A DNA stretch of 64,000 nucleotides from Sinohyriopsis cumingii. Lineage: Eukaryota > Mollusca > Bivalvia > Unionida > Unionidae. The position numbers and the translations under genes are program-made. How positions within the stretch are numbered: the first letter of the stretch is position 1; each line of letters starts with the position of its first letter. The stretch covers positions 164,480,130 to 164,544,129 of the forward strand of contig CM068824.1 in NCBI GenBank assembly GCA_028554795.2, in the 5' to 3' direction. The notes beneath the pieces are model-generated. The model did no database searches and was not told the origin of the DNA. It was given only the letters and a program-made list of their open reading frames with translations. Positions 22,245 through 37,842 of the stretch are shown here, piece by piece.

Positions 22245-22910
22245 ATGCCGCAATCAGATCTCAGTAGCATACAGGATACAATCACATCCGACATTAACAG
22301 AAATCACTCAACAATGATTATCAATAACACCCAAACAACAGCACTAATTGATACAGGAGGAGCTCTTTCATGTATTTCATGTAGACAACTACAGTGTTTG
22401 GACAATAATTTTGAATTTGAACTACCCAAAATTCCCTTCATCATTGGTGTTAATGGCGATCAACAAAGGTCTCTTGGATGTGTAGCTCTGGACTTATAAA
22501 TCAACCAACTTACAGTTAAACACAGTTTCCACCTTTTTAAATAAATACATTGTGACTTTTTATTCTAGGTATGGACTTCTTAGAAAGCAAGAAAGTTACA
22601 ATAGACTTGAACTCAAAAACAATATCCCTGTATAATGGATTAACAGTGTCTGCCTTAAAAGGTGAACTTAATCAGAAAATAAGTCTTGCTAGAACGCTTG
22701 CTAGGATTGCAGTGCCTGCACAATCTGAATGTGAGATTCCAGTGAAAATTAAGAACTGCTCAAGGAACAATATATTGTTACAACCTGTATCATCCTTACC
22801 CTCCACAACCCAATTACTTGGGGCAAGAGCAATAGATAAGATTCAAGGAGGCAGATGACAATTTCTTTTACTAAACCCCACACACAGAGATATAATCTTA
22901 AGGCCAGGTA
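22245..22910 (+). pseudogene. Gypsy aspartic protease region, frameshifted
   Basis: The first frame (22245-22499) contains TTALIDTGGALSCIS, with the catalytic D-T-G of a retropepsin (DTGG rather than the commoner DTGA). A stop at 22497-22499 and a frame change precede the second half, which starts before GMDFLESKKVTIDLN at 22571, the conserved flap-to-end segment. It continues through ARIAVPAQSECEIPV to a TGA at 22856, after which homology still runs (ILRPG) up to the Polinton junction at 22911. Stops and the shift show it was already inactive or has decayed since. Confidence 0.85.
22904..22910. other. Left target-site duplication of the Polinton
   Basis: CCAGGTA directly left of the inverted repeat, repeated at 37843-37849. 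Confidence 0.9.
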
Positions 22911-23118
22911 AGCAGCAGGGAAGTTCTACAGACCAGACGGTTCCGCCAAAATAAAGCCTCCTACGAGAACATTTCCCGTAGAAGCCTCAGATTTCAAAAA
23001 TAAGCCTTCCTACGAAAATTAATTTGCGTAAATTCACTCCCGACTGCAATTTTTTGTGTGCAAATTCAATGATTCTAGACAAGGAAAAAAAGGGGGGGGG
23101 GGAAATTTATTCTGGTGT
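22911..23118 (+). repeat. Left terminal inverted repeat
   Basis: It begins AGCAGCAGGGAAGTTCTACA and ends TTATTCTGGTGT. It is identical to the right copy except for an 11-G versus 10-G run and one A more (AAATTT versus AATTT). It contains two inverted CCTACG(A/G) blocks and a CACACAAAAAATTG motif. It is a likely substrate for the integrase and possibly the replication origin. Confidence 0.97.
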
Positions 23119-23147
23119 TTTTTTGCACAAAGGATTTGGCTGCAAAT

Positions 23148-23813
23148 TTATGAATAAATTTGATCAAGACCGATTCGATATCTACTACGTGGATCATGAA
23201 GATTAATCGTGATGAAACCGTGCGGTGTTGCCTGGGCGCGACTGAAGAAATTTTTAAATTTGTTTATGTCCATATCGCCGTTGCACCAAGTCTGATGAAT
23301 ATTTCTCAGCGTGTGAGTATCGACGCCATTGAAAACCGACAAAATGTTACAATTGTCCCTAATTACCTTTGGAATCTGCGTATATCGCTGCGTCACGTAA
23401 ATCACATCGGTGTTCTTATGTCGGCCACGCGAAAATATCCTAGCCGGATTAGTTTGCTTATCCAGCATAACATCATCGAATACGACAAGATTATTAACAT
23501 CGCCATCCAAATTTTCCACGGATGGGGTTTCATTGATGTCTGTGATGAATTCGATTGTGCCTTCGTCGGTATTGTCGCTAAATTCCTTTAGTACTTGATA
23601 GCAACGCTGATCATCAACGGACGGTGCAACCAAATACAACTTATCCCATTTTAGCCATCGCATTATCAAATTTAGCAACAACTGCGTCTTTCCAGAACCG
23701 GACGGGCCAATGATTATCATCCTTATCGAATTCGGTAACACCGCGTTGTGTTTCACCTGCTCGCGTCGCTTCGTGGCTGAAAAATCAATTACATTCATGT
23801 TACTAGAATACAT
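23148..23813 (-). CDS. Genome-packaging ATPase (FtsK/HerA, A32-like)
   Basis: A P-loop ATPase of about 221 residues that in related viruses and Polintons pumps the DNA genome into a preformed capsid. The Walker A motif GPSGSGKT lies at residues ~36-43 and Walker B NNLVVFDDV at ~107-115. The sensor region follows (VIYVTQRYTQIPKVIRDNC), matching the short A32-type layout, and the length is usual for the family. The track-style start at 23840 is GTG; I prefer ATG at 23813 or the next ATG at 23798, both followed by NVIDFSATKRREQ. It ends 30 bp inside the left inverted repeat and is transcribed towards it. Its start overlaps the divergent start of the zinc-ribbon gene. Confidence 0.93.
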   Translation of the reverse strand: MYSSNMNVIDFSATKRREQVKHNAVLPNSIRMIIIGPSGSGKTQLLLNLIMRWLKWDKLYLVAPSVDDQRCYQVLKEFSDNTDEGTIEFITDINETPSVENLDGDVNNLVVFDDVMLDKQTNPARIFSRGRHKNTDVIYVTQRYTQIPKVIRDNCNILSVFNGVDTHTLRNIHQTWCNGDMDINKFKNFFSRAQATPHGFITINLHDPRSRYRIGLDQIYS

Positions 23814-24081
23814 GGATCTATATTGTGTTAAGTGTCGCACTCACACAGCTACGATAAATCCAATCGAAATTGTCACACGCAATAACAGGAACGCAATTGC
23901 AGGAGAATGCGAAGTTTGTAAGACACGCAAGTTTAAATTTGTAAAAAAAAAAATAGAAGAACCGGAGGAGACATTGCCGCCTCCTTGTCAAATCTACCCG
24001 GAACTCCCTGGGCGAAATATCCCGGAGAAAAGCATCTGCCAGGATACAATTACTGCGGACCCGGCACAAGGCTCGATATAA
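23812..24081 (+). CDS. Zinc-ribbon N-terminal module of a PLA2 capsid-type protein
   Basis: From ATG at 23812 the frame reads MDLYCVKCRTHTATINPIEI and later GECEVCKTRKFKFV: two CxxC pairs about 31 residues apart, a likely zinc ribbon. After an 11-A run (23943-23953) the frame becomes proline-rich and ends at 24081 without further motifs. The phospholipase A2 domain starts in the neighbouring frame at this point. The best reading is one gene broken by a single-base length change in the A run, with the last ~40 residues of this frame being out-of-frame sequence. The ATG shares bases with the minus-strand ATG of the packaging ATPase. Confidence 0.8.
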   Translation: MDLYCVKCRTHTATINPIEIVTRNNRNAIAGECEVCKTRKFKFVKKKIEEPEETLPPPCQIYPELPGRNIPEKSICQDTITADPAQGSI

Positions 24082-24320
24082 GACTCAACGATAATAATCA
24101 ACCAAATCCCGGCGAAGATCCAGTAAACGCCATCGATAACGCGTGTTACTATCACGATCTTGCGTATCGTAGCGGGGATTTACAACAAAGACATCTCGCT
24201 GATATTAGGCTAATTCATGCAATAGACGCGATTCCTGACAAAAGTTTCAAAGAAAAATTGGCAACTTGGTTGATAAAAGGCGCAATGAAAGGTAAATTAG
24301 TACTCGGCGCTGGTAAATAA
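23985..24320 (+). CDS. Parvovirus-type phospholipase A2 domain
   Basis: The frame contains PWAKYPGEKHLPGYNYCGPG (calcium-binding loop with YxGPG form) and then NAIDNACYYHDLAY, carrying the catalytic His-Asp pair. This is the compact PLA2 found in the unique region of parvovirus VP1 and in some other invertebrate viral elements, where it helps breach the endosomal membrane. In this frame the first possible start is TTG at 23985; there is no ATG, which supports fusion with the zinc-ribbon frame upstream. The C-terminal third is basic (GAMKGKLVLGAGK). It stops 2 bp before the integrase ATG. The role in this element is inferred from the family; catalytic residues appear intact. Confidence 0.88.
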   Translation: MSNLPGTPWAKYPGEKHLPGYNYCGPGTRLDIRLNDNNQPNPGEDPVNAIDNACYYHDLAYRSGDLQQRHLADIRLIHAIDAIPDKSFKEKLATWLIKGAMKGKLVLGAGK

Positions 24321-24322
24321 TA

Positions 24323-25273
24323 ATGGAGCAAATATATTATTCTCCGCGAGGTTTTTGGCGAGGAAAATCAGCAATAGCCAAACTCGCCAAGGCCGCTAAA
24401 GCAAAACAATCCGTTGCTAAATCGTGGCTATCGAAACAGGCAGTCTGGCAAATATATCTTCCTCCGCCTAAGAAAATACCGTACGCGAGTTTCTCTGTCA
24501 GCGTCCCTAATGAAGTTCATCAGGCTGATTTAATGTTTCTTCCTCACGATACCGTCGAGGGAGTCACATACAAGTATGTGTTGACGGTTGTTGATATTGC
24601 TAGCAGATACAAGGAAGCGGAACCGTTATCGAATAAAACAGCAACAGAGATTGCTAAGGCGTTTAGCGAAATTTATTCACGATCTCCATTAACATGGCCG
24701 AAGCTTCTCCAGGTTGATCCAGGTCGAGAATTTCTCGGCGCGGTTACTTCATTGATGAAAAAGAATAATGTTAAAATCCGTCGCGGTATTGTAGGTGTTC
24801 ATCACAATCAGGCTATCGTCGAAAGATTCAATAAAACTCTTGCAGAACGATTATTCGGATATCAGTACGCGCGCGAATTTATTCAAGATAATCGATCTCA
24901 TGATTGGGTATCAAGATTGCCTCATGTGATTAACGCGCTAAATAACGAAGTAACACGAACAATAGCAATGAAACCCGCAATTGCGATTACAAAATCGAAA
25001 ATACCCCTAAAGCGAGATTCCACAATTTCGCCTGTGCTAGGTAGCGTCACGGTCCGGTATTTATATAAAGAAGGCGAGGCCGAGGGAGGCAGAAAAAGAG
25101 CAACCGATCCAAATTGGAGCGTAACAACACACAAAATATCAGCCGTAACAAGATCATCGGGAAGACCGGCAATTTATTTCCTAGATTCACTAGCGCCACA
25201 ACGCGGATTTACCAAGGAGGAATTACAAATAATACCGAAAGATACTCAACTACCGCCAGCGTCATTAATGTGA
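24323..25273 (+). CDS. Integrase (retroviral-type DDE, Polinton c-integrase)
   Basis: A 316-residue protein that would insert the linear element into host DNA. The rve core starts near residue 65: QADLM (Asp 69), a VDIASRYKEAEPLSNKTA strand-helix, LLQVDPGREF (Asp 132) and HHNQAIVERFNKTL (Glu 167), giving D-x62-D-x34-E. The C-terminal part (residues ~230-316) is basic with a possible chromo-like or SH3-like fold (VRYLYKEGEAEGG), but no clear chromodomain is visible. An N-terminal HHCC zinc finger is not obvious. ATG at 24323 follows the PLA2 stop by 2 bp. The last 28 bp overlap the end of the convergent helicase frame. The frame is intact. Confidence 0.93.
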   Translation: MEQIYYSPRGFWRGKSAIAKLAKAAKAKQSVAKSWLSKQAVWQIYLPPPKKIPYASFSVSVPNEVHQADLMFLPHDTVEGVTYKYVLTVVDIASRYKEAEPLSNKTATEIAKAFSEIYSRSPLTWPKLLQVDPGREFLGAVTSLMKKNNVKIRRGIVGVHHNQAIVERFNKTLAERLFGYQYAREFIQDNRSHDWVSRLPHVINALNNEVTRTIAMKPAIAITKSKIPLKRDSTISPVLGSVTVRYLYKEGEAEGGRKRATDPNWSVTTHKISAVTRSSGRPAIYFLDSLAPQRGFTKEELQIIPKDTQLPPASLM

Positions 25274-27051
25274 AACCGAATTCTACCTAACTGAGATAAT
25301 TTTCTTACTCTTGACACGGCTAAATAAACTAAATTTGACCAGGAAATTCTATCATCGACGATCCAAACTTGGCCATCCACGGTTAATCCCTGCGATGAAT
25401 GTATCGTTGTTGCGTAGCCTAGTTTCCATGGTGATCTTTCTGCGTTTATCGCGTCATTGACAAGATTAATATCAACGAGAATAATATCATTCAAGACTAA
25501 GATCTTTTCCTCTCCGCATGGTAAAGTAACACTGATATTTTGTTTCCTGGTATCAGCGGGCCTGTAACACAACGGCACCTGCAATGTTGGAAATTTCTCG
25601 CAATGAAGCTTGAATAATATATCCTGAATAACATCGCGAACAATTTTCCTACTAGCAACAATCAGATGATCGGGACGCCACAAATTTAGAAAAATATCCA
25701 TCGGAGTCTCGTCGATTATTCTTCTCATCACATCGCATTGAATTTTATTCGGTTGTAATCGAATTATTTTCTTAAATTCAGTCAGTAAAATATCATCGGA
25801 TCTATAATCGGCGTCGATTTCCTCATAATAATCAACGAAATTCCTAAGCCATTCGTGAGGAGATTCACCATCAATCGGATCAGGTTGGCCATGATCTCCG
25901 CACATTACCACGGCGGTATTTTTCCCATCCAACCAGGTCAGGAATGATTTTAATACAACTAAATTTACTGTGCAAATTTCATCAAATATTATAATTTTGT
26001 TGATATATTTGTTTCCCATACGAGCCGAATCCCATAATCCACCGCTGTATTTGAAATAACTATGATAAGTACAAGAATCAACGCCGCGTTGCCTTATTTC
26101 TCGCGCTAATCTGTGAGTTGGAGTCAACACGATCATATCAGATTTCGCAAATAAATTTATCGCTCGTGTTGTTTTACCACTACCACCAGGACCATTCATG
26201 TAAACGAATTTGTTACGTGAAATCGGGTCAAATGCGGATGCAGCCGTCGATATTTCCTCGCATTTATCTCGATGAAATTTATCGCAATCTTCGACATCGG
26301 CGTCCTCACAGTAATCTAGGATATCTTCGTTTTTTATCCTCCAAGTGCCCCAAGAACCATCGGCGATTAAATTTTCTAGCCTATACTGATATTTCTTATC
26401 GATATAAAACGAGTCCGTTGCGACCCTTACCGCGATATCAGAAAATTTATTTATCATCGACAGTAAATTTATACTAACATAAGCGAGCATCGATGATCTC
26501 AAATGCGTATACTGCGCTGATTCTCCATCGAGATAGCTAATTACGGTACCCAACTTTACTCCGTCAATGATAATATTCTCTCTGTTGCAGAATATTCCTC
26601 GCGATACCGTATCGGCTATAATAAAATCCATCTCGGCGTCGTTGATAAATAACCTAGCGTGTCGGTGTTTATGATCAACGGATCCTCCTTGAGTAAATTT
26701 GCCAATTATTTTTCTTCCGATATCCTTCGCGTTTTCACAATCCGTCGGCAACCACACTTCAGTTTGTTTTCTATACGATATAATCGCCTCGCTCACTGTC
26801 AACGATATTAACATTGACGAATCTAGCATATACCTCAACAACACTATAGGGACCCAACGACGCTGCGATAAATGCCGACCAAACCAAATATAACAAATTT
26901 TATGTAAATTTTCAGCAAGCTCGAATGAAGTAACATAAGCGAATCCTGTCATAACAAAATCAGGCAACGGTCCGTTAATTGCTACCCTTGTCATTTCGTT
27001 GGTGGGATGGCCAAATTTTAGCAAAATAATCCGCACAATCGCCATATCCAA
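25246..27051 (-). CDS. Polymerase C-terminal half fused to SF1 helicase (second part of a split gene)
   Basis: A 601-codon frame. Residues ~13-220 continue the divergent polymerase begun at 28207: FGHPTNEMTRVAINGPLP, KIIGKFTQGGSVD, then VATDSFYID, a likely motif C (TDS) of family-B polymerases. Residues ~285-600 are a superfamily 1 helicase of the RecD/Pif1 type: Walker A GPGGSGKT (287-294), IIIFDEI (Walker B), CGDHGQPDP (motif III), GYATTIHSSQGLT (motif V), LAVSRV (motif VI). Its apparent start (27051) is internal; the frame joins the upstream polymerase frame near 27016-27019. Together they make one ~980-residue replication protein: synthesis plus unwinding, probably protein-primed. Fusion of these two activities is unusual for classical Polintons. 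Confidence 0.88.
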   Translation of the reverse strand: MDMAIVRIILLKFGHPTNEMTRVAINGPLPDFVMTGFAYVTSFELAENLHKICYIWFGRHLSQRRWVPIVLLRYMLDSSMLISLTVSEAIISYRKQTEVWLPTDCENAKDIGRKIIGKFTQGGSVDHKHRHARLFINDAEMDFIIADTVSRGIFCNRENIIIDGVKLGTVISYLDGESAQYTHLRSSMLAYVSINLLSMINKFSDIAVRVATDSFYIDKKYQYRLENLIADGSWGTWRIKNEDILDYCEDADVEDCDKFHRDKCEEISTAASAFDPISRNKFVYMNGPGGSGKTTRAINLFAKSDMIVLTPTHRLAREIRQRGVDSCTYHSYFKYSGGLWDSARMGNKYINKIIIFDEICTVNLVVLKSFLTWLDGKNTAVVMCGDHGQPDPIDGESPHEWLRNFVDYYEEIDADYRSDDILLTEFKKIIRLQPNKIQCDVMRRIIDETPMDIFLNLWRPDHLIVASRKIVRDVIQDILFKLHCEKFPTLQVPLCYRPADTRKQNISVTLPCGEEKILVLNDIILVDINLVNDAINAERSPWKLGYATTIHSSQGLTVDGQVWIVDDRISWSNLVYLAVSRVRKLSQLGRIRFHINDAGGS

Positions 27052-28207
27052 GGAAACTTCCAGGATGGCACGCGCTCATATCAACGGATATCATTTCTTC
27101 GAAATAATACTTGGTATTCCACAATCCGCCATGGCCGTATTCGATACAACTAAGTTGAATATCAGTGAGAAATTCGTTCCTTGTAGGTTTCCACGAATTT
27201 CTTTCTCTGGCAGCGTGAGCAGCAACAGATGGAACCGTAAAGCAGTTCGTTAATAACTGATCAGGATTTGACGAATATTTCACCGCGATATTTTTCATAG
27301 ATTCATGTAATTTTTCATCACGGTAAATATCTCCGCGCGGCAATATAAATTGATCGTATCTTTCTTCGCTCGAGAATAACCAAACCGATATTGGATCAGA
27401 CGCGGCTAATATTTTGATATATCGGAACATGGCATCAGCGCCTTCCACGGGATAAAATTTAACAGCGCGATTTCGCGGAAATATCATTACCGATTGTGAC
27501 CACGCATGTGAATTATGATCAACAATTTCGATTGGTACTCCTCGAGATCTATACGGCGACGAATATAATATTTCTCCCGATAGTGTTTTCACCGTGATAG
27601 GAAATTTAAGTTTCTTACTCAACACAGCAACATCATCAATCGATGCGCCATCAACAACTGTCTTCGCCCACGCGTTAATTTTATCCAACCTCAACTGAGT
27701 CAATCCAGATCCACGACGAGCGTTTTTCATGTGCTCGATAACACGCTCAGCCACGCAGTTTATCATTGGAGATTCTTTCATCGCAGGTAGATTTTTCATG
27801 TCAGGATTATTATTTAGCCGATAAATTCCATAAACAACTGCACTAGATGGATATGCCCTAGCATAATAAGGACCGTCAATTCCCAATAATAATCCTGGCT
27901 TCGAATTTTTATCAAGAACAACATTTTTCTTACCGCCACGCACGGGATCTCGTTTATCGCGAATAATCCAAGTGTCGTCAGGCATTTGTGCAATAAATTT
28001 TATCCCAAAGATAAATCGCTCTTCCTTGTGTTCGAATTTTATATGCTCGATTATCTTCTTGGCCCGTTCCAGATTCATCGTAGCATCAACAGAGTTCGTT
28101 TTCCATGTCGACCAAGTGTGAATCGCTCCATCATCGAAAAATTCTTTTTTGGCACGATCAACCTCAGGTATAATATATTCTGCCTCATCAAGATCAAATG
28201 TATCCAT
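26975..28207 (-). CDS. Divergent family-B-like DNA polymerase, N-terminal half (first part of a split gene)
   Basis: 410 codons from ATG at 28207 (MDTFDLDEAEYIIPEVD). No classical exonuclease motifs were recognised with confidence. Near residues 374-391, SVDMSACHPGSF is a candidate polymerase motif A (Asp at 376, then xxxxxHPxSF in place of the usual SLYPS). The frame runs out shortly after (WPSHQRNDKGSN), while homologous sequence continues in the +1 frame. The break falls in a four-base run at 27016-27019 and looks like a one-base insertion. The gene starts 33 bp from the divergent Cys-rich gene, so the AT-rich gap probably holds both promoters. Assignment as polymerase rests on motifs A and C and on linkage to the helicase. 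Confidence 0.75.
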   Translation of the reverse strand: MDTFDLDEAEYIIPEVDRAKKEFFDDGAIHTWSTWKTNSVDATMNLERAKKIIEHIKFEHKEERFIFGIKFIAQMPDDTWIIRDKRDPVRGGKKNVVLDKNSKPGLLLGIDGPYYARAYPSSAVVYGIYRLNNNPDMKNLPAMKESPMINCVAERVIEHMKNARRGSGLTQLRLDKINAWAKTVVDGASIDDVAVLSKKLKFPITVKTLSGEILYSSPYRSRGVPIEIVDHNSHAWSQSVMIFPRNRAVKFYPVEGADAMFRYIKILAASDPISVWLFSSEERYDQFILPRGDIYRDEKLHESMKNIAVKYSSNPDQLLTNCFTVPSVAAHAARERNSWKPTRNEFLTDIQLSCIEYGHGGLWNTKYYFEEMISVDMSACHPGSFLGYGDCADYFAKIWPSHQRNDKGSN

Positions 28208-28240
28208 TATTATATTTTAGACAAATATTTAAATTATAAT
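28208..28240. promoter_or_regulatory. Short AT-rich divergent intergenic region
   Basis: Only 33 bp, almost all A/T (TATTATATTTTAGACAAATA), separate the start codons of the polymerase (minus) and the Cys-rich gene (plus). A shared bidirectional promoter is inferred; TATATTTTA is TATA-like. Confidence 0.4.
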
Positions 28241-28588
28241 ATGCAATGCAAATGGATACCAATCGGATCAACAAAATCATGCGACAAATCCTGCAGAGGT
28301 GATTATTGTGGTGCTCATATATATGCGATTCGACGAGGCAGTAAAGGACCACAGCGGTGCTTAGTTTGCCAAGTTGGCACTCGAGGAAAAACTCGATTGT
28401 GTCTGGCTTGTGGAGGGAAAAATTATCGGGAATTGCGGCGATATTATGAAAAAAGATCCTCGTCGATAATAACATGCGAAGAAGATTATATTAATCGATT
28501 CAAGGCAAATTACGATTTAAACAAACAGAATATTGTATATGGAACTGAAATCGACGATTCCTGCAATGAAAATCACACACGAGTTTAG
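28241..28588 (+). CDS. Small Cys/His-rich protein, probable zinc binder, function unknown
   Basis: 115 residues from ATG at 28241. Eight Cys lie in the first 65 residues: CKWIPIGSTKSCDKSCRGDY, CGAH, then RCLVC and RLCLACGG, giving at least one CxxC...CxxC site. The C-terminal half is charged and helical (YRELRRYYEKRSSS, INRFKANYDLNKQN). I recognise this pattern as recurring in invertebrate Polinton-type elements but know no function. It overlaps the HNH gene by 50 bp in another frame, which suggests tight packing or translational coupling. The strong zinc-binding signature favours nucleic-acid binding or transcription control (inference). The frame is intact. Confidence 0.75.
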   Translation: MQCKWIPIGSTKSCDKSCRGDYCGAHIYAIRRGSKGPQRCLVCQVGTRGKTRLCLACGGKNYRELRRYYEKRSSSIITCEEDYINRFKANYDLNKQNIVYGTEIDDSCNENHTRV

Positions 28589-29084
28589 ATCTCATCCTAC
28601 GATCAAGGGATACGAGTCATCATCAGATGGTATTGTCAGAAATATCAGAACGAAGAAAAATGCTGGTAAGGTTGGTAATTCGGGTTATCTCAGATTTACT
28701 GTCAGTGAGAATAAAAAAACGAATTATTTCTGTCACAGATTTGTGTTCGAATGTCACAAAGGACCTATCAGGGATGGTCTTGTTATCGACCACATTGACG
28801 GAAATAAACTTAACAACAAAATATCTAACCTTCGCGCAGTAACTCCAAGTGAAAATTGTAAATTTAATGGCGGATACAGAATACCAAAGGCAGTTAAATC
28901 AGTAAATAGAGAAACAAATGAAGAAATTATATTCACGTCGATGAGCGCCGCTGCAAAATATTATAATATTAATCCAGCATCGGTGCATCGTGCGGCAGAA
29001 AAAATAACTAGCGCAGCATTTTCCTACAAATTTGGCGAGTGGATCGAATTTTACTATATTCCAATAATATCCGAAGAAAATTAA
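28539..29084 (+). CDS. HNH endonuclease with NUMOD-type DNA-binding modules
   Basis: About 181 residues from ATG at 28539 (or the ATG at 28569). Residues ~11-36 look like NUMOD4 (EFRSHPTIKGYESSSDGIVR). The HNH core follows: CHRFVFECHKGPIRDGLVID and HIDGNKLNNKISNLR, with His of the first strand, Asp-His and the closing Asn. A NUMOD1-like helix-turn-helix module forms the C-terminus (TSMSAAAKYYNINPASVHRA). This layout is typical of homing endonucleases of phages and large DNA viruses, which cut a specific site and promote their own spread. In a Polinton it is most likely an acquired selfish gene, or one adopted for replication or resolution (inference). No intron or intein surrounds it. The frame is intact. 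Confidence 0.9.
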   Translation: MELKSTIPAMKITHEFRSHPTIKGYESSSDGIVRNIRTKKNAGKVGNSGYLRFTVSENKKTNYFCHRFVFECHKGPIRDGLVIDHIDGNKLNNKISNLRAVTPSENCKFNGGYRIPKAVKSVNRETNEEIIFTSMSAAAKYYNINPASVHRAAEKITSAAFSYKFGEWIEFYYIPIISEEN

Positions 29085-29109
29085 TTAAATATTACAAAAT
29101 TAATATAAC

Positions 29110-29490
29110 ATGAATGAACAAACCATAAATAACATCATCGAAGCCATCGATGACCTGAGAAAAAAAAATATAAATCTTCCATCGGAGTTGGACACGAATA
29201 AAATTCGATCCGAATTCGAGACGATTGTTCAAGGGAAACTTGAATACAAATACACGCTACCATCCGAATACAAATTAATAAAGAAAATCCAAATCGCGAT
29301 GTATCAGTCGCTAGCTACAGTCAGCGATGGTCAAATCGAATATTTTGTTAAATTATCGACGCTGGTGGAAAAAGCTAGGTTGATTTTATCAGACGCATAT
29401 GAATCAAGAAAAATTACAAGCTCACGCGTCAGACAACTGAAAAAACTTGTCGATGAGAGCAAGGCCAAGGAAATTCCTGAATCCTCCTGA
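29110..29490 (+). CDS. Small charged helical protein, unknown function
   Basis: 126 residues from ATG at 29110, 25 bp after the HNH stop and on the same strand. Almost entirely predicted alpha helix and highly charged: NNIIEAIDDLRKKNINLPSE, YKLIKKIQIAMYQSLATVSD, then ARLILSDAYESRKITSSRVR. No Cys, no signal peptide, no membrane segment. I do not recognise it. Its position at the end of the early-type plus-strand cluster suggests a replication or regulatory accessory, but nothing in the sequence proves that. Confidence 0.65.
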   Translation: MNEQTINNIIEAIDDLRKKNINLPSELDTNKIRSEFETIVQGKLEYKYTLPSEYKLIKKIQIAMYQSLATVSDGQIEYFVKLSTLVEKARLILSDAYESRKITSSRVRQLKKLVDESKAKEIPESS

Positions 29491-29622
29491 ATATTTCCGT
29501 GAACAAAAAAAAACAAAAATTAAAAATTTTTACTAATTTTGAAAATTTCCCCGGTTTTTATTTATTTTTTTGGCCCATTTTTCCCTGGTGGACAGATTTG
29601 AAAATTCAAGAGTCAGAGACTC
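29491..29622. terminator. Convergent intergenic region with polyadenylation signals
   Basis: 132 bp, very AT-rich, between the ends of converging genes. The minus strand carries AATAAATAAAAACC (near 29556-29569), a polyadenylation-type signal for the structural block. A-rich runs could serve the plus-strand genes. Confidence 0.4.
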
Positions 29623-31155
29623 TCACGATTTTACCAGCAGATTGATACTTATCGTTTCTCCGCGTATATCAAGCAAATTTCCTTTCTGATCCGTTAGTTT
29701 GAAATTTATCCTCGACAATAATCGATTATGACATCTTAGGTAAAACGGATTTACTGGTTCTTTTATTATCAAAAAACCCGGAGATGCGCTAGGTGAAAAC
29801 GAATACAAGATAAATCCCTGTTGCGCCTGATTTGACTCTGATGAATCAACATTGTAGCTGCCCTCGACAACATCCGCGTGAAGATAAATCGCGATAACTT
29901 CCGTTATATTGACGATACCTGGCGAAATATGCCGCCCGCCTTTGGTCGGATCATTATCGTGTCTGAGAAACAGCGCTAATTGTTTTTTCTCTGCCCATGC
30001 GGCGTGTAATTTCGGAAATAACTCATCGATGGTATCAGTGACGGATTTTCTCATTTTATCAACGTCGTAACCGGGGAATTTGAAATTTGGTAATGTCTCC
30101 GTGGTTAATTTATGTAATGTCACAAATTTTTTCTTATTACCTGAGTTTTTGATCAATGTGTGGCCGTAGAAATTAAACCCAGCTGATATATCGTCGATGA
30201 TAGCCCTAATGAACATACCGTGATAATATTCAAGATCGTTCGCGAGTCCATTTAAATATTTCACATATTTGGAAATTAATTCACATGAAATTGATTTATC
30301 TGAGATACATTCGTTGAATAATGTTCTCACGTGAGATAGATACATTTTATGTTCCGCGTTAAATTCGTCGATAGTTTTTTTTATATAATCGCCGTATATT
30401 ATGGTCGGGTGCTTATTTGCACCGATATAGACGATTTGTGTATCCGAGGGTGTGGAGGGGACGGACATAAATGTTATCGATTCCTCATCAACGGAAGTAA
30501 AGGCGATTATTATTTTGCCGGATTTATGTTGATTAATGAAATCAATAGCTGCACTGACTCGATCCAAGTGATATGAGAGAACTTCATACGATACCTCGTC
30601 CGTGGTAAAGTCGGATTTTTTTGGTTCGGGTTGCCTTGATGAATCCTTCGAGGTAAATCCTGGAGTTGTATCGGGGGATGTTTCCAGGAGTGGAATTTCA
30701 GGCCAACCTAATATGGTCCTAATCGATGATTGGTAAATATCTACCATATATGGTGATTTCACTTCTATCATCGATGATAGCGTTGGTTCGTGCGCAGATA
30801 TTTTTATTCCCGGAGTAGCATCGCCGGTTATATTTGATATTCTGGTAGTAAATTCCTTATCCAGCTGATCAATTTCGTAACTGCCTGTTGGTATACCAAC
30901 ATGTATCCAATCAGGTGTTCCATCGGATTTGTTTTTGTTGGCAAAAACAAGTGAATTGTTTGATAATAATCTGCCAGATGATTTTGATCTAACATTAGGC
31001 CAGCTATTGTAGACACGCAATTGCGTTAACGCAATTTCTTTGACGCTGATTGGTGTTGAAAAATTAATGCTAAATTCTGGATTGGTTGAGCTTAACGATA
31101 TTAGTGTTGTTGTCGGCGGTGTCGTGTTTGTCACGATCTGAGCTAGTTCGGACAT
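29623..31155 (-). CDS. Candidate minor capsid (penton-like) protein
   Basis: 510 residues from ATG at 31155. The N-terminal ~140 residues follow a recurring Polinton-type pattern: short beta strands (EFSINFSTPISVKEIALTQL), RVYNSWPNV, an aromatic/polar stretch, then IPTGSYEIDQLDKEF. The middle is mixed helical (LDRVSAAIDFINQHKSGKI), and the C-terminus contains LYSFSPSASPGFLIIKEP and NRLLSRINFKLTDQKGN, compatible with a beta-rich fold. There is no membrane segment. It sits last in the minus-strand structural block and overlaps the preceding membrane-protein gene by 86 bp. Structural role is inferred from position and pattern; a receptor-interacting or spike role is equally possible. The frame is intact. 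Confidence 0.55.
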   Translation of the reverse strand: MSELAQIVTNTTPPTTTLISLSSTNPEFSINFSTPISVKEIALTQLRVYNSWPNVRSKSSGRLLSNNSLVFANKNKSDGTPDWIHVGIPTGSYEIDQLDKEFTTRISNITGDATPGIKISAHEPTLSSMIEVKSPYMVDIYQSSIRTILGWPEIPLLETSPDTTPGFTSKDSSRQPEPKKSDFTTDEVSYEVLSYHLDRVSAAIDFINQHKSGKIIIAFTSVDEESITFMSVPSTPSDTQIVYIGANKHPTIIYGDYIKKTIDEFNAEHKMYLSHVRTLFNECISDKSISCELISKYVKYLNGLANDLEYYHGMFIRAIIDDISAGFNFYGHTLIKNSGNKKKFVTLHKLTTETLPNFKFPGYDVDKMRKSVTDTIDELFPKLHAAWAEKKQLALFLRHDNDPTKGGRHISPGIVNITEVIAIYLHADVVEGSYNVDSSESNQAQQGFILYSFSPSASPGFLIIKEPVNPFYLRCHNRLLSRINFKLTDQKGNLLDIRGETISINLLVKS

Positions 31156-31601
31156 TATTAATATTCATTTGTTCAATCTCCGAGTAAATACTGATCATTG
31201 CCGAAAATTCTGGATCGGAGATAACGCCATCATTGAGACTCTCCGAAAGCAGCGATGATAATCTCGAATACGCGCCGTTGACCTGGGATAATTTATTCTT
31301 GTATAATGATAACTTTTCACTCGTGCACGAGGAGATTTTTTTCGCTACGATATTGAGAACACCAGCGATTGTCGTTGTTGACGAGATTATTATCGTTGCA
31401 ACGATTGGCGCGATTGTTGTTACCGCGGATAAAATTATTCCAGCACCGGCGACTACCGCAGATACCGCGTACACAGCAACGTCAATGGTAACTAATCTAC
31501 GCTGGTATTTTTTTTATTTTTGTTTGATATTCGTCGAGGAGTTTTTTTAGCGAATCCTGCCATGATCGCGCCTGATTGTAACGGTAGTCAGATGCGGTCA
31601 T
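31070..31601 (-). pseudogene. Small membrane protein gene split by an A8-run frameshift, function unknown
   Basis: The gene seems to start at ATG 31601 and runs about 30 codons of charged helix (RYNQARSWQDSLKKLLDEY), after which that frame stops at 31497-31499. The coding sense continues in the neighbouring frame: a strongly hydrophobic segment (VSAVVAGAGIILSAVTTI then PIVATIIISSTTTIAGVL), a Ser/Lys-rich helix, and NDGVISDPEFSAMISIYSEI, which looks like a lone EF-hand-like loop. The shift lies in an 8-base run at 31508-31515. The second frame has no ATG (only GTG at 31474), which supports one broken gene. A one- or two-span membrane topology is likely. I do not recognise the family. Confidence 0.6.
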
Positions 31602-31631
31602 TTATTAGTATCTTACGATAACAATTACGGA

Positions 31632-32972
31632 TTATTGCGTATATTCGGATAAAAATTCGAAAAATATAACATAATACACTGGTCCCATGTTGGTTCTATC
31701 TGGTGGTTCTAGCACAAATGTGACCTTGTAACCTGCGGCCATAAAGTAATTAAAATTTTCGTCGAAAGTGTCATGTGGGACTTTTATTTTAAATTTTATC
31801 GGAGCTTGAAGAAATATTCGATATACTCCAGTAATTGGCGGGGTAAATTTAAATATGTTATTCTCGGGTGTCCATGCGCCCTCTTGTGTCTCTACCATAA
31901 ATGGAACACGGCATTGTATATTTTTTGCTTCTACTTCCGCTGGTATCGAAATACGCGATAATCTTCCAAGATTCAGTGGTGATATTTTTGTGTTAATATC
32001 GCTAATTTTTGTAGATGCGTCGAGAAGATCCTCGTTGATTTTTTTTATTTTCTCATCTGTCAATTCACGCATCGCGTTAAACCCCCTAGTAAATTCGGGA
32101 ACAACAACATCGCTGAGTTTATTAATTTCCTTGTTGATATCGTCGATTGTTGCTCTCTGACCTAACGAGATATTTATTTTGGTAATTTCCTCGTTAATGG
32201 ATTTTACTCTCTCGATGAGATCGCTGTGTGATGTTCTATCGGCTTTTTGAAATATTAATGCACGTGCCGATTCAATCTCTCTGTTGATTTGGGCGATATC
32301 TTCGTTTATTTTCTTTGTTTTCTCGGTAAGATCGTTATGTGATGTTCTATCGGCTTTTTGAAATATTAATGCACGTGCCGATTCAATCTCTCTGTTGATT
32401 TGGGCGATATCTTCGTTGATTTTCTTTGTTTTCTCGATGAGATCGCTGTGTGTAGTTGAGGAGGTTTCGATGAATTTTTTTATATCCTCGTCGAGTTTTT
32501 TATTGAGATTTTTTGATGTATCGTCTAGTTTTTTAAGATCGTTAGTTAGCTTGGTAAATCTTTTTATCATTCTGTCCTGAAGATCGTCGTGTAATGCTTT
32601 ATCGGCCTTTAGAAGCATCGCCGCTGATAGCTCTTTGTCGGATTTTTCTACATCCGCGATATTAGCCTTTAGTGGCAATACCGCTAATAGATCGGTAATA
32701 TCAGCTATAGATTTCAACACTAATTCCGATTGACGAGTAAACTGACTAATATGATCATTATATTCTTCTCGCTTGATTATATCAGTTATTTTCACGTTGC
32801 TGGTGTGTAATCGCCCTTCGGTATTTTGAAAAACAGCAACTTCGCCAGGGTCCACCTCTGACAGCGATAGAAGATTGTTAATATCGCTCTTGGTTGCGAA
32901 CTTTGATAGATCGACGTCAGTCACTTCTGCTTTTTCCTTCCTGTAGATAAATCTACCGTAAATATCAACCAT
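31632..32972 (-). CDS. Fibre-like protein: long coiled coil with C-terminal head
   Basis: 446 residues from ATG at 32972. The N-terminal ~90 residues (YGRFIYRKEKAEVTDVDLSK) could be a capsid-anchoring tail. Residues ~90-345 are heptad-type coiled coil with repeated blocks; two copies of a 37-residue unit (KTKKINEDIAQINREIESAR plus ALIFQKADRTSH) are nearly identical at DNA level (111-bp repeat around 32230-32452). The last ~100 residues are a compact beta-rich domain (FMVETQEGAWTPENNIFKFT and GVYRIFLQAPIKFKIKVPHD), reminiscent of trimeric C1q/TNF-type or adenovirus-type heads. The tail-shaft-head plan suggests host attachment. Its start overlaps the protease end by 8 bp. The frame is intact. 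Confidence 0.75.
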   Translation of the reverse strand: MVDIYGRFIYRKEKAEVTDVDLSKFATKSDINNLLSLSEVDPGEVAVFQNTEGRLHTSNVKITDIIKREEYNDHISQFTRQSELVLKSIADITDLLAVLPLKANIADVEKSDKELSAAMLLKADKALHDDLQDRMIKRFTKLTNDLKKLDDTSKNLNKKLDEDIKKFIETSSTTHSDLIEKTKKINEDIAQINREIESARALIFQKADRTSHNDLTEKTKKINEDIAQINREIESARALIFQKADRTSHSDLIERVKSINEEITKINISLGQRATIDDINKEINKLSDVVVPEFTRGFNAMRELTDEKIKKINEDLLDASTKISDINTKISPLNLGRLSRISIPAEVEAKNIQCRVPFMVETQEGAWTPENNIFKFTPPITGVYRIFLQAPIKFKIKVPHDTFDENFNYFMAAGYKVTFVLEPPDRTNMGPVYYVIFFEFLSEYTQ

Positions 32973-33303
32973 GATATTTATCTACGGCGTATTCAAATAC
33001 AATTTTGTGATAAGGACCGGATGATTTTGAAATTGCGTCAAGAACATTAATTGACTCCGGGCCGCATATCGGTGGATCAGCTAATGTTTGTGTTGGAAGA
33101 GTCGAATACCAAATCGGAAGATTTAGTTTTGACAAATAGCTGATAAATTCATTTGGCGGTGCTAATCCATAAGAGTCAAAATAAACGACTTCGCGAGGAT
33201 TAATCGCGTAGGCGACCCAGTGTGTGCCAGGACCGGTATTTTTATCGAGATTAATTATTCCTGTCTCGGTAGGGTTTGGTTTTTCTGGTAGTTGATCCCG
33301 CAT
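32965..33303 (-). CDS. Adenain-type cysteine protease
   Basis: 112 residues from ATG at 33303. The catalytic set of the adenovirus-protease/Ulp1 clan is visible in order: His 28 in GTHWVAYAI, Asp 43 in VYFDSYGLAPP, Gln 72 (oxyanion) and Cys 80 in PPICGPESINVLDAI. It would mature capsid precursors, and candidate sites occur in the pVI-like protein. It is short because N-terminal extensions are absent. The replacement of the usual CGxF by CGPES is noteworthy but keeps the nucleophile context. It lies between the fibre-like gene and the basic capsid protein. The frame is intact. Confidence 0.9.
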   Translation of the reverse strand: MRDQLPEKPNPTETGIINLDKNTGPGTHWVAYAINPREVVYFDSYGLAPPNEFISYLSKLNLPIWYSTLPTQTLADPPICGPESINVLDAISKSSGPYHKIVFEYAVDKYHG

Positions 33304-33356
33304 AAATACGCCTCTGAAAAATTTTATTTTTTTATTCTTTGCTTCGCTAAGTAAAT

Positions 33357-33821
33357 CTAAATTTGAATAGGCCGTGCTAATCTTAGGCCGGATCCGTACG
33401 GGGGTCGTCTTAGATAAAGGCCGTTCCCCTTTTTTTTACCGTATCTCCCTCCGGTAACTTTTCGCATTACTGTGGAGCCTAATTCAGAACCTAAACCTCC
33501 GAGCGCGCCTAATCCGAATGCCCTTCCAATCGCCGGAAGAGCCATTTTCGCTAGCCCCAATAGAGCAGCAGGGAAAATACCGCCTGTTTTGACCATATCT
33601 CTGATGGCGCCTATGGAAAGACTCACATGAACGCCGGAATTTAATGATTTGGCCTTGGTAAATCGTTCACGTTGACCTCTAGTTAGCGACAGTTTGTTAG
33701 GCCCACCGTGAATCTGATCGTTTTTCAGTGTTAATTTCATACCGCATCGCTTTGATATCGCTGTTTGGAGTTTTTTCATCTGACCTGGGGTCAGAGTTAC
33801 ACTGACGTGTTCGTATGGCAT
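33357..33821 (-). CDS. Small basic, Gly-rich minor capsid/core protein
   Basis: 154 residues from ATG at 33821. The N-terminal half is a repeated 'x-x-L-T-x-x-Q' pattern (VSVTLTPGQMKKLQTAISKR, KLSLTRGQRERFTKAKSL, then HVSLSIGAIRDMVKTGG). The middle is a hydrophobic Gly/Ala-rich amphipathic segment (FPAALLGLAKMALPAIGRAF), and the tail is basic (GGRYGKKKGNGLYLRRPPYG then SGLRLARP). It resembles adenovirus-like small core or membrane-active proteins. The three-fold Q-type repeat and GSGLR tail motif are shared with the pVI-like protein's tail. A decayed relative is at 16722-16871. The role is inferred from composition and position. Confidence 0.65.
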   Translation of the reverse strand: MPYEHVSVTLTPGQMKKLQTAISKRCGMKLTLKNDQIHGGPNKLSLTRGQRERFTKAKSLNSGVHVSLSIGAIRDMVKTGGIFPAALLGLAKMALPAIGRAFGLGALGGLGSELGSTVMRKVTGGRYGKKKGNGLYLRRPPYGSGLRLARPIQI

Positions 33822-33854
33822 ATTAATAACCGCTTAATCTAAATTTGGAATTTG

Positions 33855-35225
33855 TCACATGTTCTCGACTGGAGCATCGATGACTCTCATTCTGCCGCTG
33901 ATTCCTTCCAGTATCATTGTTCTATCGCTGAGGATTACCGCGATGGCTCTTGCAGGTCCGTTTGTGTTAATTCTGGCTTTGAAATGGATATCAACGACGG
34001 ATTGTTTTACCAAATCGAGATGCTCCAGGGAAAAGTAATAGATAGGATAGCGAGTATTAAAATCCAACTGTGATATTTGCAATCCGGTATCGATATTTTG
34101 ATCGCGGCCCATGAAACTTAGCAATCGATGATACGCGCGAGCAGTCGAAAAATTTTCAAAATCGATGGCTATTTCCTCCGATGGTTCTTGTTGCCCGTTT
34201 ATCCTTAGTGAAACGTTTGTTGCATCGAATTTATCGAATATCATGTGACTGCGATCTTGATTATATCTATCTGCAGATTGAAGGGCAACAAAGATGTGTC
34301 TAGGTGCCGAAACACCTTGTTGTGACGCAATTCGCCAAGTAAATATTCCGTTGATATTAACATCGCAGGAGTCGGTCATCGTTGTCAACCAGGACATGAC
34401 GGATTTTCCGCCTTGATTCATGAATGATAATAATTTTTCTTCCTCTAGCATCGATGTAACTATCGCTGGCATCCACAAGGTAAATTTAGTTAGGATTACC
34501 TTGCCTGCATCACCGGGATCTCGCCAGATGGCTTTGTTATTGCCAGCAGCGTCTCGAACGAAAGTTATCGTGTGTTTTGCTCCGTAAATAACTTTTCTGA
34601 AATGCCTGCAAAATCCAAAAATGTGAGATAGCGGAATTGCGCAGGAAAATCTTCGTTCATTTCCCCTTAACATAGCCCTTCTCGTGGCAAATCCAAGGTT
34701 ATAATTGTCCTTGATGCCGATCACCACTGAAAGAACATCGGCGGGGGCGGCGCCAGTGGCATCTCTCGGCCTACCGATATCATACGGTAAATGTTCAGGG
34801 GCATCGAAGTTATCTTTGGCGAACATCATACTAGGACCGGCTGACCTGGTAAAATCATCCGAGTATCTCGCTAGTCCTATTATCGTCGTTGCTATATCAA
34901 CGTTGTCCGTAATTGATTCGATCTCTCTTCCGTCGATCATGTAAGTGGCGCTCTTGAATAATGCCATGATGCCGTTGTTGACAAACCCAACAGCAAAATC
35001 TGCATCGTAGTTGGTATCATCGTTTTTTACCATTCTGCCAACAACCTCGATATATGCCTCAGATGGAAGAAAATACCTTGTTGTATCGTGGACTTGAATT
35101 TCCAAGCGACTATCAGTATTTGGCGTCACTGCGTCGTACGAGAAATACTGGAAATCTCGCACGGATGAGTCCCTGCCTACAGGCTCGTCCATGTCGAACA
35201 CTTCATTTGACACTTGTGCGAACAT
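33855..35225 (-). CDS. Candidate major capsid protein (double jelly-roll type)
   Basis: 456 residues from ATG at 35225. The whole length is a beta-strand-rich pattern without membrane or catalytic motifs: VRDFQYFSYDAVTPNTDSRL, FVNNGIMALFKSATYMIDGR, RFSCAIPLSHIFGFCRHFRK, HTITFVRDAAGNNKAIWRD, then PIYYFSLEHLDLVKQSVVDI and AIAVILSDRTMI at the end. I recognise these conserved blocks from a widespread family of invertebrate element-encoded capsid-like proteins. Size and central position in the structural block fit the major capsid protein that would form hexon-like trimers. A double jelly roll cannot be proven without structure prediction. It is spaced 15 bp from the pVI-like gene and 33 bp from the basic protein. 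The frame is intact. Confidence 0.75.
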   Translation of the reverse strand: MFAQVSNEVFDMDEPVGRDSSVRDFQYFSYDAVTPNTDSRLEIQVHDTTRYFLPSEAYIEVVGRMVKNDDTNYDADFAVGFVNNGIMALFKSATYMIDGREIESITDNVDIATTIIGLARYSDDFTRSAGPSMMFAKDNFDAPEHLPYDIGRPRDATGAAPADVLSVVIGIKDNYNLGFATRRAMLRGNERRFSCAIPLSHIFGFCRHFRKVIYGAKHTITFVRDAAGNNKAIWRDPGDAGKVILTKFTLWMPAIVTSMLEEEKLLSFMNQGGKSVMSWLTTMTDSCDVNINGIFTWRIASQQGVSAPRHIFVALQSADRYNQDRSHMIFDKFDATNVSLRINGQQEPSEEIAIDFENFSTARAYHRLLSFMGRDQNIDTGLQISQLDFNTRYPIYYFSLEHLDLVKQSVVDIHFKARINTNGPARAIAVILSDRTMILEGISGRMRVIDAPVENM

Positions 35226-35240
35226 TTATTATTAAGAATA

Positions 35241-35783
35241 TCATCTAAAACGAAGACCGCTGCCTGAAATGAAGCTTGTATTTGCTAGATTTGTCTTAGC
35301 AACTTTATTTGCTAGATTTGTCTTAGCAATTTCCTTTGCTAGATTTATGTTAGCAACTTCATTTGCAAGATTTGTATTTGCAATTTCCTGCGCTATATTT
35401 GTCTTAGCAACTTCCTGCGCTAGATCGTTTATTTTTTTATTTGCTGCGTCGTTTATGGCTTTACTGACTTCGGGTGGCATTTCTCTGGTGATGGGTAATT
35501 TGACGGGTTGTTTTTTGCGCACTAAATTTAATATTTTACTTTTGACAGCATTGAAACCCTTGCTGGCCAAATTACCGATACCAGAAATGGCAGTCTCGCC
35601 GATCTTTCCTATTGCTTTTAACCCGAACTGTTTGATCACGGGTCCGATTTTAGGTATTATTCGCGTAACGAGACTTCCAATGATATCACCGAATCCATTG
35701 CCGTGGATATATTTGTACACGGGCAATCTAGAGTTTACTATGCGGACCTGTTTGGGTCTGCGCTGATGTTTGTGAACAATTAT
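35241..35783 (-). pseudogene. pVI-like membrane-active minor capsid protein, start codon apparently lost
   Basis: The open frame extends upstream of the TTG at 35726 to an in-frame TGA; in between is conserved VRIVNSRLPVYK but no ATG. The relic at 11018-11290 has ATG exactly where this copy has ATA (35781-35783), so the start was probably lost by one substitution. Architecture: short N-terminus, a candidate adenain site IHGN/G, an amphipathic Gly/Ile-rich helix region (SLVTRIIPKIGPVIKQFGLK), a basic segment (KILNLVRKKQPVKL), then five 9-residue repeats (AKTNLANEV type), a second candidate site ISGS/G and the tail GLRFR. This parallels adenovirus pVI, cleaved at both ends. Function inferred. 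Confidence 0.65.
35270..35422. repeat. 27-bp tandem repeat inside the pVI-like gene
   Basis: About five and a half copies of a 27-bp unit (plus-strand GCTAGATTTGTCTTAGCAAC with TTCATTT or TTCCTT), encoding A-x-E-(V/I)-A-x-(T/I)-N-(L/I) repeats. The frame is preserved. Confidence 0.9.
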
Positions 35784-35803
35784 GTTATTTCAATTGTGTT
35801 GTT

Positions 35804-37564
35804 TTAATCGATGAGCTCATCGACAAGTTCCTTGTAAATGTGAGAATTAATGATGCCACCGCGGAATAACCGCTGACAAATATCTGAGGCTTCGTTGATT
35901 ACTTCGCGAGAGTTATTTCCTGCTCGTTTTCCTCCGATTAATACCTCGAGGCGAGACACGTCGTTGACAACACTGTCAGGGCAAATTGTATATCCGCTTC
36001 CTGTCTTTGGTTTTGGAAATTGCGATGGCGATAACGCTTCCTCGAATTTTTCTCCTGACGATGTCCCTGATGACGACGTTAGTGGCGAATATATTTCTGG
36101 TGAAGATGAAGGGGTACCCTTAAAAACCCAACCCTCTGCTGGATCAATACCCCATCTTATTTTGGGGGTAGGTAAGGGACCCTTCCAGTTTGTCAGTTCG
36201 GGGTCGAAAGGGGGTAATGGTTCGGGGGAGGGGATGTAGGGCCTGACTGATGTATAAACATCTCTAGTAGATGGTGGACTTTTTGTCGCTGTCGATATTT
36301 CTCTAGTAGATGGTGGACTTTTTGCCGCTGCCACTTTTGTTGATTTGTATTGATCAACCTTCAATAAAAATTTTGCAAAATTTTCATCATTGTAAACTAT
36401 CGGTTTTCCTAAACTACCAAAATAAATTATCGCCTGCCAATCAATTTCTCCGACTTTATCAGCAATATCTTTTCTCAAAATTAAATTTTTAATTTCCCGA
36501 GAATCATTCGCAGCAACTACTATTTTTTTAATATCGTCATCGATTAAATTCATATGTTCTTTGTTCAAATAATTATCTGCGGGTAATTTAGGATCAATTA
36601 TTAATGAGCCATTGTACACAGATGGTTTATATTCGCTTGGTTGAGTTACTGGTTCCTGATCACTCTGATCTTTTTTCTTTTTTGATTTTCTCTCTTTTTT
36701 CTGAGGTGTAATTTTTTCTTTTGGTCTAGCTCCTAATTCCTGTGGTTGAATATCTTCTTCCTGTAGTTGAATTATTGGTTCCTGTGGCATTACTTTTCCT
36801 TTTCGTGTTTTAGCTTTTTCTTCCTTCTCCTGTTGTTTTCTTTCCTTCGCGTGCTGTTTTATATCTTCCGCTAGTTGCTTATTATGATTATATCTATCGT
36901 CTGCTGCTTCTAAAAATCTTCTAAAAAATGGATCCCTTTCACTCGCCTGTGTTTTTTCCGCATAAACTTTATATAACATACCATACCAACTATTACGGGT
37001 TTTATATTTTCCCTTTCCTATTTCAGTCAAATATTCATTTCGAGCACTAAACATATCTTCCGCAAATTGACCAATTCGATCTATGGAATACAGTGTCGAG
37101 AGCGGTCGTGATATTATTTCCCATCCCTCATCGGTGAAATTTTCTCTTAAATTCTCGATATTAAACTTCCCTTTTTTTACTCCCGGTTTTCCTACTACGG
37201 TTTTTCCCTTACTACCTGTTTTATAAGCAATTGCAGGTTGTCGCCCTTGTGCTGCTGCTGCTATTGCTAATCGCTCGGGTAATGTTCGTGATTGTTCCTC
37301 AATACCTTTCAACATAGGAAAAATTCCCTTTTTCTTAGTATCCGGATCTTTTTCGTCACCAAATACAACTTGCTCGATTGTTCCGGTAACTGGCTCCAAC
37401 CATTTCGATGATGCCTCAGCAATTCCATGTTGTATATCTTCGTAACCACGAACATTTCTCTTGAATAATTGTTTTGTCGGAATAAGCTTCTTTAATGCCG
37501 CTAATTGCTCTCGCGCTAATCTGGCAGAATGAGGCTCTCCAACTCTACTAGCTTTTCGACTCAT
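35804..37564 (-). CDS. Large accessory/scaffold-type protein with conserved C-terminal domain
   Basis: 586 residues from ATG at 37564. The N-terminal ~120 residues are helical with ARLAREQLAALKKLIPTKQL and SSKWLEPVTGTIEQVVFGD. A middle Lys/Glu/Gln-rich region (QQEKEEKAKTRKGK, KKERKSKKKKDQSDQE) and Pro/Ser-rich spacer (two STREISTATKSPPSTRDV-type repeats) look disordered. The last ~55 residues (VSRLEVLIGGKRAGNNSREV and CQRLFRGGIINSHIYKELVD) form a compact conserved domain, also kept in the relic at 11304. A GSGY motif precedes it and might be a processing point. Length and disorder fit a scaffold or core protein packed with the genome (inference). It is first in the right-hand block. The frame is intact. 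Confidence 0.65.
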   Translation of the reverse strand: MSRKASRVGEPHSARLAREQLAALKKLIPTKQLFKRNVRGYEDIQHGIAEASSKWLEPVTGTIEQVVFGDEKDPDTKKKGIFPMLKGIEEQSRTLPERLAIAAAAQGRQPAIAYKTGSKGKTVVGKPGVKKGKFNIENLRENFTDEGWEIISRPLSTLYSIDRIGQFAEDMFSARNEYLTEIGKGKYKTRNSWYGMLYKVYAEKTQASERDPFFRRFLEAADDRYNHNKQLAEDIKQHAKERKQQEKEEKAKTRKGKVMPQEPIIQLQEEDIQPQELGARPKEKITPQKKERKSKKKKDQSDQEPVTQPSEYKPSVYNGSLIIDPKLPADNYLNKEHMNLIDDDIKKIVVAANDSREIKNLILRKDIADKVGEIDWQAIIYFGSLGKPIVYNDENFAKFLLKVDQYKSTKVAAAKSPPSTREISTATKSPPSTRDVYTSVRPYIPSPEPLPPFDPELTNWKGPLPTPKIRWGIDPAEGWVFKGTPSSSPEIYSPLTSSSGTSSGEKFEEALSPSQFPKPKTGSGYTICPDSVVNDVSRLEVLIGGKRAGNNSREVINEASDICQRLFRGGIINSHIYKELVDELID

Positions 37565-37636
37565 ATTATTTTCAACTATATTGTTTTAATGCGAGGTAAA
37601 ATTAGGATCAGCAGCCAAACTTTGCAAACTTCGTCG

Positions 37637-37842
37637 ACACCAGAATAAATTCCCCCCCCCCTTTTTTTCCTTGTCTAGAATCATTGAATTTGCACACAAA
37701 AAATTGCAGTCGGGAGTGAATTTACGCAAATTAATTTTCGTAGGAAGGCTTATTTTTGAAATCTGAGGCTTCTACGGGAAATGTTCTCGTAGGAGGCTTT
37801 ATTTTGGCGGAACCGTCTGGTCTGTAGAACTTCCCTGCTGCT
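37637..37842 (-). repeat. Right terminal inverted repeat
   Basis: Reverse complement of 22911-23118 with two one-base length differences in and beside the C/G run (37651-37662 region). It ends CTTCCCTGCTGCT at 37842. The 72 bp between it and the last gene's ATG probably contain that gene's promoter. Confidence 0.97.

Follow-up and report, generated by a model that had tools for sequence, protein, structure and literature searches.

A 64-kb stretch of the Sinohyriopsis cumingii genome (GenBank assembly GCA_028554795.2, contig CM068824.1, positions 164,480,130 to 164,544,129; the window, in which positions are counted from the first letter) contains an integrated element of 14,932 bp at 22911–37842. 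The element is probably an integrated Polinton-like DNA virus of a mollusc, in which a replicase of the Tlr1 kind replaces the classical Polinton polymerase. It combines a characteristic gene set with matching inverted ends and a target-site duplication, and belongs to a family of genomic copies with purifying selection and discordant capsid and replicase histories. The best reading of this family is that of recently mobile, capsid-dependent Polinton-like viruses whose lineages exchange capsid genes.

The left terminal inverted repeat (22911–23118, plus strand) starts AGCAGCAGGG and faces the right repeat at 37636–37842 (minus strand). The intervals 22911–23101 and 37652–37842 are identical at 191 of 191 positions, and similarity extends past a poly-G length difference to ~207 bp (99% over 208 bp). 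CCAGGTA flanks the element on both sides as a target-site duplication (left copy 22904–22910, right copy 37843–37849, neither with a strand), which is a 7/7 match (4^-7, ~6e-5). Seventeen open reading frames (ORFs) span 14,015 of the 14,932 bases (94% coding), with gaps of 2–132 bp between neighbours and several overlaps. Stop-to-stop ORFs of at least 150 amino acids (aa) number 15, whereas 50 dinucleotide-shuffled sequences have 0.3 on average and 3 at most; nine ORFs reach at least 220 aa, compared to none in the 50 shuffles. The initial annotation of this DNA had described near-identical inverted repeats of about 207 bp, a 7-bp duplication and around 15 tightly packed genes, and all three observations hold. 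An Rfam search at gathering cut-offs and a tRNA scan were both empty.

The replicase provides the clearest difference from classical Polintons, and the motif tally and trees bear out the earlier proposal of a separate lineage. Two minus-strand pieces encode it: an N-terminal piece (26975–28207) with vOTU-type Cys/His motifs and palm motif A, and a C-terminal piece (25246–27075) with palm motif C (ATDS) and an SF1 helicase (PF13245, 3.8e-9; PF13604, 8.2e-9). These overlapping frames align in order with one continuous 1058-aa protein (P0136; 52% identity to residues 40–443 and 64% from residue 443). Motifs were tallied in 20 and 24 rows chosen from the window pieces and 109 homologues. N-terminal N-C and H-N-x-H motifs, which resemble those of viral OTU proteases, retain Cys in 13/13 and His in 16/16 rows with letters at those sites; the motif A Asp is present in 20/20 rows, and motif C reads (A/V)TDS, with Ala in 23 of 24 rows, Val in one and the first Asp in none. 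The vOTU-type His lies ~140 residues from motif A, a spacing that we take to be too short for an exonuclease. In the published passages covered, to which statements about the literature here and below are limited, pPolB-S1H (Tlr1-like) proteins comprise a vOTU, a palm with TPR subdomains, no exonuclease and an SF1 helicase; their motif C is without its first Asp, they sometimes have an HNH or GIY-YIG tail, and they are found in Polinton-like viruses (PLVs) and transpovirons (PMC11071308). Judged by its motifs against this description and by its Pfam helicase, the predicted replicase follows the same plan.

Integration and packaging genes accompany the replicase. A retroviral-type (RVE) integrase (24323–25273, plus strand; PF00665, 4.9e-8; D-x34-E) matches retroviral integrase structures weakly, and an A32-type packaging ATPase lies at 23148–23813 (minus strand, ORF open from 23840; PF04665, 3.2e-12), so that both the DDE integrase and the packaging ATPase recognized initially have Pfam support. 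Together with the inverted repeats, the duplication and a double-jelly-roll match, they give the element most of the features of a polintovirus in the broad sense. The 456-aa candidate major capsid protein (33855–35225, minus strand) matches PF21738 at 8.7e-21, and its identification as a double-jelly-roll capsid protein is supported as far as tested. Recognition of an adenain-type cysteine protease (32965–33435, minus strand) stands in part: its frame has His, Asp and Cys motifs of the adenain type and finds S273R, the African swine fever virus protease of solved structure, at 1.4e-4, whereas its Pfam matches to PF00770 (E 0.022 and 0.034) are below the cut-off. Proposed phospholipase A2 (PLA2) and HNH genes also gain family matches, with the PLA2 frame at 23937–24320 (plus strand; PF08398, 1.5e-13; YCGPGT and HD motifs) and a free-standing, phage-type HNH endonuclease at 28539–29084 (plus strand; HNH_3, 2.3e-16; phrog_59, 1.7e-29). 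A DUF5679 zinc-ribbon protein is encoded at 23710–24081 (plus strand; PF18930, 3.7e-14).

That the element is a true adintovirus, or a classical Polinton with an unusual polymerase annotation, is very improbable. Integrase, ATPase, double-jelly-roll capsid protein and protease are common to both groups, and a PLA2 protein is found in insect Mavericks as well (PMC5803895), but the palm and SF1 helicase form one protein in relatives and in 9/11 other copies in the genome, the first motif C Asp is missing in 24/24 rows, and the integrase has no chromodomain match. Adintoviruses are defined as having a PolB that bears an OTU domain, together with a chromodomain in the integrase (PMC11071296). Neither an OTU-bearing PolB of adintovirus type nor a C-terminal integrase chromodomain was found: polymerase and SF1 helicase form a fusion, and the Pfam search listed only rve for the integrase, with no chromodomain at E <=1. 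The adintovirus label given initially is, therefore, not retained. A classical Polinton has a pPolB with exonuclease and no helicase, and here an SF1 helicase is fused. What classical Polintons/Mavericks and adintoviruses share with the mussel element is the integration, packaging and capsid gene set; replicase type and the integrase without a chromodomain match set it apart.

Among the nearest known systems are Tlr1 of Tetrahymena and other pPolB-S1H PLVs. They, too, have a capsid protein, an RVE integrase, a packaging ATPase and a palm/SF1-helicase protein whose motif C lacks the first Asp (PMC11071308, PMC4028283). The mussel element differs from this group in its animal host, in the presence of PLA2 and DUF5679 proteins and in its mostly 7-bp duplications. 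It has an adenain-type protease, which Tlr is reported to lack (PMC4028283), and its HNH domain is free-standing, whereas a GIY-YIG domain is fused to the helicase in the Tlr1/pPolB-S1H group. OmPLV of the dinoflagellate Oxyrrhis marina also combines polymerase and SF1 helicase in one protein and shares a capsid protein and A32 ATPase, but its helicase is N-terminal, its exonuclease is kept, a tyrosine recombinase takes the place of the RVE integrase, and a protease and minor capsid gene are unrecognized (PMC12721341).

The element has many relatives within its own genome. A left-end search of the assembly (2.9 Gb, 1138 contigs, with the window on contig 1) scored at least 40 matches, 93–100% identical, among 1540 first-look candidates. 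At least 13 facing end pairs lie 14.0–15.5 kb apart, including the window pair, and 14 matches are unpaired among those listed; the search for further copies recommended in the initial annotation has, thus, uncovered a multi-copy family. In the 12 other pairs, 24/24 ends start AGCAGCAGGG, and duplications are 7 bp long in eight pairs, 6 bp in two, 8 bp in one and absent from one. With the window included, 9/13 pairs have an exact 7-bp duplication. A 6-bp duplication has been called typical for RVE integrases (PMC12220804), compared to mostly 7 bp here, and duplications of 5–7 bp occur in some Polinton-like elements (PMC7805220). The pair without a duplication (contig 4, 47930218–47944190, 14 kb apart) has mutually reverse-complementary flanks and is an inverted duplication or an assembly palindrome. 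Comparison of the two ends within each copy gives 0, 0, 0, 0, 0, 0, 1, 1, 1, 1, 3, 4 and 5 differences in 185 sites (13 pairs, contig 4 included; median 1), and left ends of different copies differ at 1–10 of 185 sites (median 4). Because ends within copies are nearly identical, the insertions are young, barring gene conversion that keeps ends alike; with the same proviso, an interpretation of the element as an old fossil was rejected. The window element is recently inserted even though its replicase frame is broken.

Gene state was assessed from two separate pieces of 11 of the 12 other pairs, with the contig 4 pair left out. The capsid frame is open in 11/11 of these copies, and the replicase is a single frame of 989–998 aa in 9/11; in the remaining two the replicase parts share one frame, with a longest open stretch of 810 or 900 aa. 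By a simple counting method applied to few copies, pairwise dN/dS has a median of 0.07 (0.04–0.09) for the replicase (nine copies, 36 pairs, window left out; median dS 0.24) and 0.19 (0.15–0.33) for the capsid gene (12 copies, 66 pairs, window included; median dS 0.64). Both genes are under purifying selection. Their histories differ: in the nine copies with both genes, capsid and replicase dS are uncorrelated (Mantel r -0.12, reached by 1532/2000 permutations), capsid dS exceeds twice the replicase dS in 23/36 pairs, and nearest neighbours by the two genes differ for 8/9 copies. A straightforward interpretation is repeated insertion by diverged, selected lineages that have swapped capsid genes. 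Capsid variation among the 12 copies is concentrated at alignment columns ~121–180 and ~221–260, and these two hypervariable stretches are possibly exposed loops.

These capsid data also bear on a self-synthesizing transposon that moves only inside the cell, with capsid genes that are leftovers or that serve intracellular particles. Such a transposon is an unlikely explanation, although it suits a genome that harbours many copies bounded by inverted ends and target duplications. It also suits the failure of scans of IMG/VR viral contigs with the capsid, replicase, integrase and ATPase, of which the single-protein ones reach close relatives only, to find any relative or free virus. Capsid genes are unlikely to be leftovers because they are open in 11/11 other copies with dN/dS of 0.15–0.33; intracellular particles needed for transposition may be compatible with all of the data. 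Besides the empty viral scans, several other points weigh against a recently mobile, capsid-dependent virus family with a Tlr1-type replicase. No particle, free genome or transcript has been seen. Copies were picked by ends close to those of the window, which favours young, complete copies, and gene conversion could also hold ends alike and mix genes. Capsid dS is lower than replicase dS in 5/36 pairs. Pfam lists 22 families for 20 replicase rows, none of them a polymerase or OTU family, so that motifs and a single paper underlie the palm and vOTU assignments. In the window copy the replicase occupies two frames; a programmed frameshift was rejected, since relatives and 9/11 other copies have a single frame and the remaining two have both parts in the same frame, and the split, seen only in the window copy, points to a lesion or an assembly error. 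The 510-aa penton candidate (29623–31155, minus strand) has 11 homologues, those with a species name coming from the freshwater mussels Potamilus and Sinanodonta, and is a putative penton by its gene position.

Relatives outside the genome point to a bivalve host, probably a freshwater mussel. Capsid homologues comprise 119 proteins: the twelve best are unnamed (53–67% identity), the best named one is from Sinanodonta woodiana (53% over 62% of the query), and Hydra vulgaris follows at 27–30%. Replicase homologues number at least 109 among 7999 candidates scored and include proteins from Sinanodonta, the sea slug Elysia, glomeromycotan fungi and Thiodiazotropha bins; the last are symbiont bins that presumably contain host DNA. 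Quick trees were built from 37 of 110 replicase rows and 56 of 120 capsid rows; the capsid tree omits short rows and, past the first 26, two in three, and its long branches are flagged. Window and Sinanodonta fall together in both trees, in clades of 7 rows (replicase) and 12 rows (capsid) that each have an SH-aLRT of 100, and by sequence similarity the nearest named relatives are freshwater mussels. Glomeromycotan fungal replicases of the same type (P0153, P0154, P0156, P0171, P0174 and P0181) form a well-separated clade. Among GTDB contigs, the capsid scan found nothing and the replicase scan found only a degraded replicase of the same type in an archaeal-labelled metagenome-assembled genome (MAG); it lies on JAADDH010000070.1 (3152 bases), in a MAG labelled Candidatus Diapherotrites, and this is probably a mis-binned eukaryotic or viral contig. 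Phage records gave no match to the left end, the replicase C-terminal piece or the capsid. Related replicases in fungi and in bins labelled Thiodiazotropha and Diapherotrites could point to a contaminant or to fungal, protist or symbiont sequence, but such an origin is scarcely credible for an element on a contig of at least 175 Mb, with copies on many contigs and retrotransposon genes in its flanks, that groups with Sinanodonta in both trees and whose replicase branches separately from the fungal clade. Polintons in molluscs are already known: a survey of transposons records Mavericks in every mollusc genome it analysed (PMC10294476), and work on cryptophyte elements refers to published evidence that oomycetes, molluscs and nematodes have exchanged Polinton polymerases (PMC12220804). 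The open-licence PMC passages searched contain no mention of a Tlr1-type element in an animal, and literature outside them may mention animal copies.

Family knowledge suggests how an integrated Polinton-like virus of this kind would function. The fused vOTU-palm-SF1-helicase protein would copy the linear genome by protein priming that starts at the inverted ends, and its OTU-like part may carry out self-cleavage. The ATPase would package the genome into a double-jelly-roll capsid, the adenain-type protease would mature that capsid, and PLA2, which is reported in insect Mavericks (PMC5803895), could open membranes at entry. Insertion by the integrase would yield the 7-bp duplication. Copies would spread via particles, within or between hosts, because capsid genes are selected between insertions and exchanged between lineages. 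A broader proposal is advanced tentatively: these may be distinct Tlr1-type mollusc polintoviruses, infectious still or until very recently, with a 7-bp stagger and capsid swapping between lineages, so that one host genome would store many divergent capsids, kept under selection and combined with a replicase that hardly varies.

Other frames in the element are less readily classified. Profile searches, which the initial annotation had called for, assign the ATPase, integrase, HNH, PLA2, DUF5679, capsid and helicase to families, whereas they gave no convincing match for the fibre-like, penton-candidate, 586-aa and small proteins. Capsid and penton-candidate profiles found no solved relative below E 0.08, and the PLA2 profile found no solved structural relative. 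On the plus strand, a 126-aa protein (29110–29490) has no convincing Pfam match. Minus-strand frames are a 147-aa frame with a hydrophobic stretch (31070–31513), a 446-aa fibre-like protein with tandem 111-bp repeats (31632–32972), a 154-aa basic protein with GG motifs and no family match that is a probable core protein (33357–33821), a 182-aa frame with 27-bp tandem repeats (35241–35789) and a 586-aa protein that we guess to be structural (35804–37564). The protease, PLA2, 147-aa and 182-aa frames have no early ATG in the window copy, and for the protease none precedes the conserved N-terminus. The protease core is present in 11/11 other copies, of which only two have a Met in the 30 N-terminal residues tested (a rough residue window), and the stretch upstream matches in another frame in 3/11; in the same start test the 182-aa frame core was found in just three copies. 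Loss of the protease start by mutation in the window copy was rejected because 9/11 other copies also have no Met there, and the missing ATG looks like a family trait. The protease, whose frame overlaps the 154-aa frame, is likely to be made by splicing or another unusual start; options may include splicing, a frameshift from the overlapping frame and a non-AUG start. In the surrounding host DNA, a 159-bp direct repeat (87% identical) brackets the element at 21888–22046 and 38172–38329, and a sub-threshold retroviral aspartyl-protease match lies just upstream of the insertion (22245–22499); the insertion site may be in or beside an old retrotransposon. Retrotransposon reverse transcriptase and RNase H genes flank it at 3917–7515 (minus strand) and 45657–46625 (plus strand), and the window has long minisatellite arrays at 61108–62285 (38-bp unit), 52551–53327 (34 bp), 17974–18502 (42 bp) and 54884–55206 (31 bp).

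Polymerase-helicase replicases are described from protists, metagenomes and transpovirons in the literature passages covered, so that a multi-copy animal element with such a replicase widens the range of that branch of double-jelly-roll viruses. Mismatched capsid and replicase histories provide a measurable record of recombination between integrated viruses. With young insertions and selected capsids in an animal accessible to sampling, the infectivity of Polintons, a long-standing question, can be tested directly.

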